From: Pseudomonas silvicola
GTDB lineage: Bacteria; Pseudomonadota; Gammaproteobacteria; Pseudomonadales; Pseudomonadaceae
Length of the DNA stretch: 64,000 nt
NCBI RefSeq assembly: GCF_026651855.1
Contig: NZ_CP093280.1
Span: 5,434,001-5,498,000 of the forward strand
Reading direction: 5' to 3'
Below the pieces are notes generated by a model. It was not told where the DNA came from. It saw only the letters and a program-made list of their open reading frames with translations, and did no database searches. Position 1 is the first letter of the stretch, and each line of letters starts with the position of its first letter. Below, one piece after another: positions 21,075-24,110 of this stretch. The position numbers and the translations under genes were made by a program.

Positions 21075-22280
21075 ATGGCCACATTGAAAATAAAAAACCT
21101 GAAAAAAGGCTTTGAAGGCCTGGCGATCATCAAAGGCATCGACCTGCAGGTGAACGACAAGGAATTCGTGGTGTTCGTCGGCCCCTCGGGCTGCGGCAAG
21201 TCGACCCTGCTGCGCCTGATCGCCGGCCTTGAAGAGGTCACCAGCGGCACGCTCGAACTGGACGGCCGCGACATCACCCAGGTCAGCCCCGCCAAGCGCG
21301 ACCTGGCCATGGTGTTCCAGACCTATGCCCTGTACCCGCACATGACCGTGCGCAAGAACATGTCCTTCGCCCTGGACCTGGCCGGCGCCGACAAAGCCGA
21401 AGTGCAACGCAAGGTCGGCGAGGCCGCGCGCATCCTGGAGCTGGAACCGCTGCTGGAGCGCAAGCCCAAGCAACTGTCGGGCGGCCAGCGCCAGCGGGTG
21501 GCCATTGGCCGCGCCATCGTGCGCAACCCAAAGATCTTCCTGTTCGACGAGCCGCTGTCCAACCTCGATGCCGCCCTGCGGGTGCAGATGCGCCTGGAGC
21601 TGGCGCGGCTGCACAAGGAACTGCAAGCCACCATGATCTACGTCACCCACGACCAGGTGGAGGCCATGACCCTGGCCGACAAGGTGGTGGTGCTCAGTGC
21701 CGGGCGCATCGAGCAGGTGGGCTCGCCGCTGGAGCTTTACCACCACCCGGCCAACCTGTTCGTGGCCGGTTTTCTGGGTACGCCGAAGATGGGCTTTCTC
21801 AAGGGCAAGGTCAGCCGCATCGACAGCCAGGGCTGCGAAGTGGAGCTGGCCGCGGGCACCCGGGTGGACCTGCCGCGCAGCAATGCCAACCTGACCGTAG
21901 GCAGCGAGGTGACCCTGGGTATCCGCCCCGAGCACCTGGAACTGGCCCAACCCGGGCAGGCGTCGCTGGCGGTGACCGCCGATGTCGGCGAACGCCTGGG
22001 CAGCGACACCTTTTGCCATGTGCTCACCGACTCCGGCGAACCCCTGACCCTGCGCATACGCGGCGACCTGGCCAGCCAGTACGGCGAACGCCTGAACCTG
22101 CACCTGCCGCCCCACCACTGCCACCTGTTCGACGCTCAGGGCGTCGCCGTGGCCAAGCCATCGTGCGCAATCCAAAGATCTTCCTGTTCGACGAGCCGCT
22201 GTCCAACCTCGATGCCGCCCTGCGGGTGCAGATGCGCCTGGAGCTGGCGCGGCTGCACAAGGAACTGCAAGCCACCATGA
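21075..22280 (+). CDS. mtlK: Mannitol ABC transporter ATPase with altered C-terminus
   Basis: A MalK-type ATPase. Walker A GPSGCGKS (36-43), the signature LSGGQRQR, Walker B IFLFDEP and the H-loop YVTHDQ are all present, followed by the MalK-like regulatory/TOBE domain. The native gene, reconstructed from its 3' end at 24110, would encode 367 residues. Here residues 1-362 are native and the last five are replaced by 39 out-of-frame residues (starting SCAIQR), because a 644-base tandem repeat begins at 22158. The ATPase core is intact, so function is possible. Downstream cotranscription now has to pass about 1.8 kb of repeated mtlK. Confidence 0.88.
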   Translation: MATLKIKNLKKGFEGLAIIKGIDLQVNDKEFVVFVGPSGCGKSTLLRLIAGLEEVTSGTLELDGRDITQVSPAKRDLAMVFQTYALYPHMTVRKNMSFALDLAGADKAEVQRKVGEAARILELEPLLERKPKQLSGGQRQRVAIGRAIVRNPKIFLFDEPLSNLDAALRVQMRLELARLHKELQATMIYVTHDQVEAMTLADKVVVLSAGRIEQVGSPLELYHHPANLFVAGFLGTPKMGFLKGKVSRIDSQGCEVELAAGTRVDLPRSNANLTVGSEVTLGIRPEHLELAQPGQASLAVTADVGERLGSDTFCHVLTDSGEPLTLRIRGDLASQYGERLNLHLPPHHCHLFDAQGVAVAKPSCAIQRSSCSTSRCPTSMPPCGCRCAWSWRGCTRNCKPP

Positions 22281-24089
22281 TCTACGTCACCCACGACCAG
22301 GTGGAGGCCATGACCCTGGCCGACAAGGTGGTGGTGCTCAGTGCCGGGCGCATCGAGCAGGTGGGCTCGCCGCTGGAGCTTTACCACCACCCGGCCAACC
22401 TGTTCGTGGCCGGTTTTCTGGGTACGCCGAAGATGGGCTTTCTCAAGGGCAAGGTCAGCCGCATCGACAGCCAGGGCTGCGAAGTGGAGCTGGCCGCGGG
22501 CACCCGGGTGGACCTGCCGCGCAGCAATGCCAACCTGACCGTAGGCAGCGAGGTGACCCTGGGTATCCGCCCCGAGCACCTGGAACTGGCCCAACCCGGG
22601 CAGGCGTCGCTGGCGGTGACCGCCGATGTCGGCGAACGCCTGGGCAGCGACACCTTTTGCCATGTGCTCACCGACTCCGGCGAACCCCTGACCCTGCGCA
22701 TACGCGGCGACCTGGCCAGCCAGTACGGCGAACGCCTGAACCTGCACCTGCCGCCCCACCACTGCCACCTGTTCGACGCTCAGGGCGTCGCCGTGGCCGC
22801 GCCATCGTGCGCAACCCAAAGATCTTCCTGTTCGACGAGCCGCTGTCCAACCTCGATGCCGCCCTGCGGGTGCAGATGCGCCTGGAGCTGGCGCGGCTGC
22901 ACAAGGAACTGCAAGCCACCATGATCTACGTCACCCACGACCAGGTGGAGGCCATGACCCTGGCCGACAAGGTGGTGGTGCTCAGTGCCGGGCGCATCGA
23001 GCAGGTGGGCTCGCCGCTGGAGCTTTACCACCACCCGGCCAACCTGTTCGTGGCCGGTTTTCTGGGTACGCCGAAGATGGGCTTTCTCAAGGGCAAGGTC
23101 AGCCGCATCGACAGCCAGGGCTGCGAAGTGGAGCTGGCCGCGGGCACCCGGGTGGACCTGCCGCGCAGCAATGCCAACCTGACCGTAGGCAGCGAGGTGA
23201 CCCTGGGTATCCGCCCCGAGCACCTGGAACTGGCCCAACCCGGGCAGGCGTCGCTGGCGGTGACCGCCGATGTCGGCGAACGCCTGGGCAGCGACACCTT
23301 TTGCCATGTGCTCACCGACTCCGGCGAACCCCTGACCCTGCGCATACGCGGCGACCTGGCCAGCCAGTACGGCGAACGCCTGAACCTGCACCTGCCGCCC
23401 CACCACTGCCACCTGTTCGACGCTCAGGGCGTCGCCGTGGCCGCGCCATCGTGCGCAATCCAAAGATCTTCCTGTTCGACGAGCCGCTGTCCAACCTCGA
23501 TGCCGCCCTGCGGGTGCAGATGCGCCTGGAGCTGGCGCGGCTGCACAAGGAACTGCAAGCCACCATGATCTACGTCACCCACGACCAGGTGGAGGCCATG
23601 ACCCTGGCCGACAAGGTGGTGGTGCTCAGTGCCGGGCGCATCGAGCAGGTGGGCTCGCCGCTGGAGCTTTACCACCACCCGGCCAACCTGTTCGTGGCCG
23701 GTTTTCTGGGTACGCCGAAGATGGGATTTCTCAAGGGCAAGGTCAGCCGCATCGACAGCCAGGGCTGCGAAGTGGAGCTGGCCGCGGGCACCCGGGTGGA
23801 CCTGCCGCGCAGCAATGCCAACCTGACCGTAGGCAGCGAGGTGACCCTGGGTATCCGCCCCGAGCACCTGGAACTGGCCCAACCCGGGCAGGCGTCGCTG
23901 GCGGTGACCGCCGATGTCGGCGAACGCCTGGGCAGCGACACCTTTTGCCATGTGCTCACCGACTCCGGCGAACCCCTGACCCTGCGCATACGCGGCGACC
24001 TGGCCAGCCAGTACGGCGAACGCCTGAACCTGCACCTGCCGCCCCACCACTGCCACCTGTTCGACGCTCAGGGCGTCGCCGTGGCCAAG
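21514..24089 (+). repeat. 644-bp tandem repeat, four copies, of the mtlK 3' region
   Basis: Copies span 21514-22157, 22158-22801, 22802-23445 and 23446-24089, each exactly 644 bases and nearly identical. The unit runs from just before Walker B to the last codons of mtlK. The two ends in the native gene share an imperfect 14-base match, TGGCCxxGCCATxG, which is where the copies join. Because 644 is not a multiple of three, every junction shifts the frame. Single-base differences mark the copies: 'aacccaaag' in copies 1 and 3 against 'aatccaaag' in copies 2 and 4, and 'gggattt' instead of 'gggcttt' in copy 4 near 23728. Confidence 0.97.
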
Positions 24090-24110
24090 CCATTGCAGGC
24101 CGCGGCCTGA
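22158..24110 (+). pseudogene. mtlK: Three extra partial mtlK copies
   Basis: The three downstream copies each encode the Walker B to C-terminal part of MtlK, lacking the first 146 or so residues with Walker A and the signature motif. Their frames are open (for example 22013-22924, 22657-23568, 23301-24110) because the preceding junction brings an in-frame leader, but none can form an ATPase. The last copy retains the native MtlK ending (AKPLQAAA, stop at 24108-24110). They are fragments created by tandem duplication. A short translated fragment could in principle compete for dimerisation, but nothing shows this. Confidence 0.9.

Follow-up and report, generated by a model that had tools for sequence, protein, structure and literature searches.

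In Pseudomonas fluorescens, the seven genes of the mtlEFGKDYZ operon allow cells to take up and oxidize mannitol, glucitol, and arabitol, and MtlD serves as the dehydrogenase, according to the available text of the report on this operon (PMC4514859). Tandem duplication at short homologies, with subsequent unequal exchange, is well described in other systems. In the E. coli lac system, microhomology was present at all 40 of 40 sequenced amplification junctions, and small deletions with 1-4 bp of microhomology have been reported as well (PMC3161906, as excerpted). Engineered short duplications of 2.6 and 3.3 kb in Pseudomonas aeruginosa were estimated to be stable for thousands of generations and could both amplify and contract, and amplifications of the 2.6-kb unit contracted and reached a plateau at two to three copies, as far as the available part of that report describes (PMC12607827).

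We analyzed a window of 64,000 nucleotides from the genome of Pseudomonas silvicola (G000:C1:5434001-5498000, where G000 is the genome under study and C1 the contig); feature coordinates given below are window positions unless they carry a prefix. The order of mtlE, F, G, K, D, and Y in the window is the same as in the P. fluorescens operon, but here mtlK is amplified, mtlD and mtlY are truncated, and mtlZ is absent from its place, the comparison being with the operon as described in the available text (PMC4514859). The mtlE, mtlF, and mtlG genes, named by position and similarity, are open frames on the + strand at 17861-19186, 19253-20179, and 20190-21026.

A self-match of the window shows that the interior of mtlK consists of a 644-bp unit present four times as head-to-tail direct copies with start-to-start spacings of 644, 644, and 644, as the first-pass annotation had claimed. 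The array spans 21506-24081 and is closed by a 12-bp boundary sequence at 24082-24093. The extent proposed earlier, 21514-24110, started a few bases late and included the gene's own end. All four copies lie on the + strand. Copy 1 (21506-22149; 644 bp) begins at the Walker-B-side boundary in mtlK and shows self-matches at offsets of 644 and 1288; it is followed by copy 2 (22150-22793), copy 3 (22794-23437), and copy 4 (23438-24081). Neighboring copies have exact runs of 266-643 bases in common, so long that the four-copy match is far beyond chance. Tandem Repeats Finder gives no row for the array because its longest period is 500.

The four copies are not all identical, and their differences are confined to a few places. 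In copies 1-4, the junction dinucleotide aligned with 21511-21512 reads GC, AA, GC, and GC, and the right end (24087-24088) has AA. The position corresponding to 21527 carries C, T, C, and T, and that corresponding to 21794 carries C, C, C, and A, the last being a C>A change private to copy 4 at 23726. Three junction variants thus coexist within one array: AA+T (copy 2), GC+C (copy 3), and GC+T (copy 4). Both single-base differences fall in the third codon position and are synonymous in the MtlK frame. Among aligned relatives, the site of 21527 is C in 36/39 and T in 3/39, while the site of 21794 is C in 27, T in 12, and A in none; as indicators of which relatives might hold the alternative alleles, these bases are not decisive.

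The unit ends sit inside mtlK and match one another over only 12 bp, as an imperfect direct repeat. Its left half (TGGCCGCGCCAT; 21506-21517, + strand) is identical at 10 of 12 positions to its right half (TGGCCAAGCCAT; 24082-24093, + strand), so that the homology TGGCC(GC|AA)GCCAT is present at both unit ends and each unit-end junction bears GC, as on the left, or AA, as on the right. Comparing 632 x 600 bp of the mtlK flanks gives 72 position pairs whose 12-mers reach 10/12 identity. Since such pairs are common by chance, the homology at the mtlK junction is not strong evidence by itself. None of 42 aligned sequences from relatives, a set that counts two genomes (G070 and G078) twice, has the repeat at 10/12; their matches range from 3 to 8, the best being 8/12. 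On these comparisons, the boundary repeat is a chance feature and not a conserved repeat pair. Among 398 genomes sampled from the genus, the exact array junction occurs in P. silvicola G000 only. Ten other genomes match the junction with two mismatches, and all ten matches start with ATTGGCC, the form of the native left site; three of them (in G019, G084, and G104) fall within those genomes' own mtlK matches.

Because 644 is not a multiple of 3, the reading frame shifts at each junction, and the predicted products agree with the earlier account of a nearly full MtlK with a new 39-residue tail followed by fragments. The first open reading frame (21075-22280, + strand; ATG at 21075, stop at 22280) encodes 401 amino acids, comprising MtlK residues 1-362 and 39 out-of-frame residues. 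By family matches, it keeps the ABC_tran, OB_MalK, and TOBE_2 domains at the same positions as the 367-residue orthologue of G085, suggesting that MtlK is probably still made. The open reading frames over the later copies, all on the + strand, are partial: that over copy 2 (22013-22924) has OB_MalK and TOBE_2 with no ABC_tran match, that over copy 3 (22657-23568) is a further fragment, and that over copy 4 (23301-24110) bears the native MtlK C-terminus. Copies 2-4 lack the mtlK start, and their longest open reading frames begin at TTG, although ATG-started open reading frames of 196-230 amino acids also lie inside them. The three extra units add 1932 bp, a length divisible by 3; the frame is therefore unchanged outside the array, and contraction to one unit would leave an uninterrupted mtlK.

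Downstream of the array, the operon is damaged. The mtlD remnant (24125-25006, + strand) encodes MtlD residues 1-256 of 493, the Rossmann domain only, and then runs out of frame. The remnant of mtlY, the xylulose kinase gene (24898-25986, + strand), encodes residues 120-488 of 488. Comparison with G085, whose mtlK is 89% identical, indicates that one deletion of about 1.1 kb removed the last part of mtlD together with the beginning of mtlY: positions 11876 and 12970 of G085 (locus L056) join at 24880-24883 of the window, and about 1.09 kb is lost relative to G085. The same break is seen in comparison with G070 and G078. The junction (24883-24886, + strand) carries CTGG, a putative microhomology. 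By our reading, the sequences at the join have CTGG in common. This deletion resembles the small deletions of the E. coli lac system, to the extent that the available text describes them (PMC3161906). The mtlZ gene, named by position and similarity at L056:14091-15029 in G085, is absent after mtlY in the window. Searches of the whole genome found no full MtlD (only residues 1-256 of 493), no full MtlY (only residues 120-488, in addition to a homologue of 27% identity over residues 3-450), and, for MtlZ, only matches of 28-37% identity. The seven genes of mtlEFGKDYZ are thus not all intact. With mtlD and mtlY truncated, mtlZ missing from its usual position, and no complete MtlD or MtlY found elsewhere in the genome, the mannitol pathway of this operon is, as judged from its genes, broken past the array, irrespective of any effect of the array itself. 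A dehydrogenase of another family might in principle substitute for MtlD.

The mtlK array has company on the same chromosome. We examined 2.004 Mb of the 8.65-Mb genome, made up of 1.744 Mb of contig C1 (including 5 kb of N), 200 kb of C2, and 60 kb of C3. The C1 portion holds nine tandem duplications with units of 0.57-2.1 kb and junction homologies of 9-17 bp, having been chosen partly for their junction homology; none comparable was seen in the C2 and C3 stretches (200 kb and 60 kb). The mtlK duplication (644 bp, four copies) has its 12-bp homology with two mismatches. Two others touch the window. The galU duplication (36658-39307, no strand assigned; 1318 bp, two copies) has a 14-bp junction homology and copies that are 100% identical; one galU copy is intact (36500-37339, - strand), and the other is cut and fused. 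A 790-bp duplication with an 11-bp homology and four differences runs from 63416 over the right edge of the window (G000:C1:5497416-5499006), and its gene presumably encodes a LOG-type protein. The remaining C1 duplications are a 1079-bp ABC-transporter unit in three copies (15-bp homology), a 2106-bp unit (13-bp), a 762-bp unit (9-bp), an 874-bp unit (15-bp), a 567-bp unit (17-bp), and a 1863-bp unit (L223, 11510-15250; G000:C1:6671510-6675250) whose 15-bp homology has one mismatch. The 1863-bp unit holds sbcD and the start of sbcC, names which we take from the protein sequences. Three of the nine duplications are 100% identical, over 584, 1332, and 2119 bp. The eight duplications other than mtlK have the same anatomy as the mtlK array and no evident common function.

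The count of nine leaves out the 117-bp and 43-bp arrays, REP-type intergenic repeats (441 and 277), a 567-bp intergenic repeat at C1:5341727 that is part of a longer diverged repeat, a 302-bp duplication in a tRNA region in which no junction homology was found, and three spaced repeats in C1:3322752-3380310. Long short-period arrays start at G000:C1:5327328 (L042, 13328 onward) and G000:C1:1332919 (L159, 12919 onward); they comprise a 117-bp unit, with a copy number of about 17 or more, and a 43-bp unit whose repeats extend over more than 1 kb. Within the window, arrayed intergenic repeats with many inverted arms and spacings of 160, 117-118, and 277-278 bp occupy 12868-14354, and we take these to be REP-like.

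No tandem duplication was found in the controls, which were 400 kb of G060, 100 kb of G005, and 112 loci (1,041,505 bases), under the criteria of an offset of at least 250 bp and a match covering 0.8 or more of that offset, with a minimum match of 200 bp for G060 and 100 bp for G005 and the 112 loci. The 112 loci are brief segments surrounding mtlK-like genes in many genera, with overlap among some of them, and just 0.5 Mb of the control is contiguous. At nine per 1.744 Mb, the contiguous controls would be expected to hold about 2.6 duplications, and because that number is so small, they are weak evidence alone. With the offset limit lowered to 100, G060 shows one repeat with a 110-bp period. 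A search of plasmids returned only diverged relatives of the ABC transporter, none of which covers 80% of the query, and among the literature matches listed, none named a natural Pseudomonas genome carrying a load of such small duplications. RecA, MutS, and RecJ are each present in G000, open, and over their family cut-offs, so these three lend no support to loss of recombination or repair genes as the source of the duplication load.

In mtlK and the two most diverged duplications, all 18 of 18 coding differences between copies are synonymous: two in mtlK, nine in the 1863-bp sbcD-sbcC unit, and seven in the 1079-bp ABC-transporter unit. The mtlK junction dinucleotide was left out of this count, as was the tenth mismatch of the 1863-bp unit, which falls within the junction homology and distinguishes the two parental ends, not the copies. 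Of the nine sites of that unit, one belongs to the upstream neighbor of sbcD and was assessed in the fused frame of copy 2. In the 1079-bp unit, 9/12 pairwise comparisons were evaluated and 3/12 lie outside the genes given, every one of the seven sites being evaluated at least once. The weakly diverged 790-bp and 762-bp units add two placeable coding differences, both non-synonymous in frames chosen by hand, so that 18/20 of the coding differences placed are synonymous. Three further differences in the 790-bp unit follow the stop of its gene, by our reading of the frame, and the 874-bp unit has one copy difference. Sequencing noise would not be expected to produce the synonymous pattern of the diverged pairs. 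As far as these substitutions can tell, either both copies of a diverged pair have long been under purifying selection or the copies come from different strains.

The array might be a false tandem repeat made in assembly, perhaps from a mixed culture or from mis-joined reads, a possibility that the first-pass annotation had also raised. The assembly is unusually large at 8.65 Mb, its estimated contamination is 8.04%, it carries many tandem duplications, and the synonymous-only differences in the two most diverged duplications are what alleles of two strains would look like. C3 (84,880 bp; L250-L252) is, moreover, exactly twice 42,440 bp. In the 60 kb of C3 that was read, bases 1-17560 recur at an offset of 42,440; C3 is either a small replicon in dimeric form or one doubled in assembly. 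Against an artefact, a single array contains three distinct junction variants and two synonymous copy differences, with copy-private bases among them, and an assembler would be expected to merge duplications that are 100% identical over 584, 1332, and 2119 bp. The nine listed duplications end at homologies of 9-17 bp, although they were listed because of that, long duplicates of the strain type were not seen in the C1 stretches within offsets of 60 kb, and the assembly has only three contigs. We therefore regard an artefact as distinctly unlikely, and the sequence points to an array that is very probably real. The same synonymous differences bear on an origin that overlaps the one we favor, in which DNA from another strain of the species was taken up and joined through homologous recombination on one side and short homology on the opposite side. 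Such an event, which we consider unlikely, would leave the alleles of two strains side by side. Transformation-made merodiploids are known in Streptococcus pneumoniae and are alike in being tandem duplications whose copies can have two sources, though the pneumococcal cases used IS-type repeats, with one 3,276-bp duplication without flanking repeats being mentioned in the available text (PMC3784515); homology-facilitated illegitimate recombination, as excerpted, likewise gives tandem duplications with copies of possibly two sources (PMC3240628). The 18/18 synonymous differences favor this origin, but the 790-bp and 762-bp units bring the overall figure to 18/20, three of the nine duplications have no differences at all, mtlK offers two sites only, and long coexistence under purifying selection would also yield synonymous changes where whole genes are kept.

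The array was proposed earlier to be a reversible expression switch, in which a change in copy number modifies read-through into the catabolic genes downstream and contraction brings back the native mtlK. The presence of recA and the kept frame outside the array fit part of this proposal, since loss of the 1932 bp would indeed yield an uninterrupted mtlK. That contraction would not, however, restore a working mannitol pathway: because the downstream catabolic genes are broken, with one deletion having truncated both mtlD and mtlY, there is no switchable mannitol pathway, and alternative states with different functional outputs are not found for the proposed catabolic output. The boundary repeat is also not conserved in relatives, nearly complete MtlK is predicted to be made already from the first copy, and eight similar duplications occur elsewhere in the 1.74 Mb examined. 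We consider a switch highly improbable. Selection for transport is a further alternative, whether through the dose of part of MtlK or of its regulatory C-terminal domain, or through altered regulation by the long tail, for the benefit of another polyol or sugar. In its favor, mtlE-G are open frames, the first MtlK open reading frame keeps all domains, the copy-2 frame could encode the OB and TOBE domains free of the ATPase domain, and ATG-started frames are available in copies 2-4. On the other hand, the longest frames of those copies begin at TTG with no mtlK start, the unit amounts to only part of a gene, the genes for catabolism are broken, and the other duplications are alike in anatomy with no evident common function. 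A selected gain is accordingly improbable.

The explanation that we favor, and consider probable as a whole, is a short-homology duplication that later expanded and was cheap to keep in a decaying operon. The tandem duplication would have arisen spontaneously in mtlK when two 12-bp sequences, alike by chance and lying 644 bp apart in the ancestral gene, were joined by a strand switch or by illegitimate recombination of another kind. The copies may then have undergone RecA-dependent unequal exchange that expanded the array to four, recA being present and open in this genome, and the left end and the junctions may afterward have exchanged some sequence. The GC and AA junctions agree with a switch to the left or to the right of the two mismatches, or with later exchange involving the left end. 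The order of these events, the route of expansion, and a working MtlK are all presumed in this account, as is near-neutrality. The array would have been kept because it is cheap, with the first copy giving almost complete MtlK and the rest of the operon already dead, and it is probably near-neutral. That both single-base differences in mtlK are synonymous is slightly unexpected under neutral drift in dead copies, although there are two sites only. Transport by MtlK could be under selection, which the short-homology explanation does not need.

We class the mtlK array with known short-homology tandem duplications and amplifications because it has a short unit, boundary homology, and four copies in a genome with intact recA. 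As in the E. coli lac system, direct repeats are joined at homologies too short for ordinary RecA recombination; the difference, judged against the excerpted report, is that here we see a fixed assembly state with very small units (0.57-2.1 kb), a fourfold mtlK, and no known selection (PMC3161906). The stable short duplications of P. aeruginosa belong to the same genus and show short units being lost slowly, but they were engineered, at least 2.6 kb long, and bore resistance markers, whereas the mtlK array is natural, shorter, and inside one gene (PMC12607827, available text).

Taken singly, the mtlK array is an ordinary duplication in a decaying operon, and it would be one part of a load of small short-homology tandem duplications on the chromosome of this strain. 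That load is a better lead than the array itself. It is conceivable, if doubtful, that this lineage both makes and keeps such duplications, at about five per Mb, that the diverged ones join alleles of different strains by a process linked to DNA uptake and so form stable local merodiploids, and that the mtlK array is one such product, later amplified. The comparison work on Pseudomonas duplications used engineered cases, as described in the available text (PMC12607827). A three-contig genome with natural, homology-bounded duplications of different ages is a ready data set on how such duplications form, persist, and amplify in Pseudomonas.
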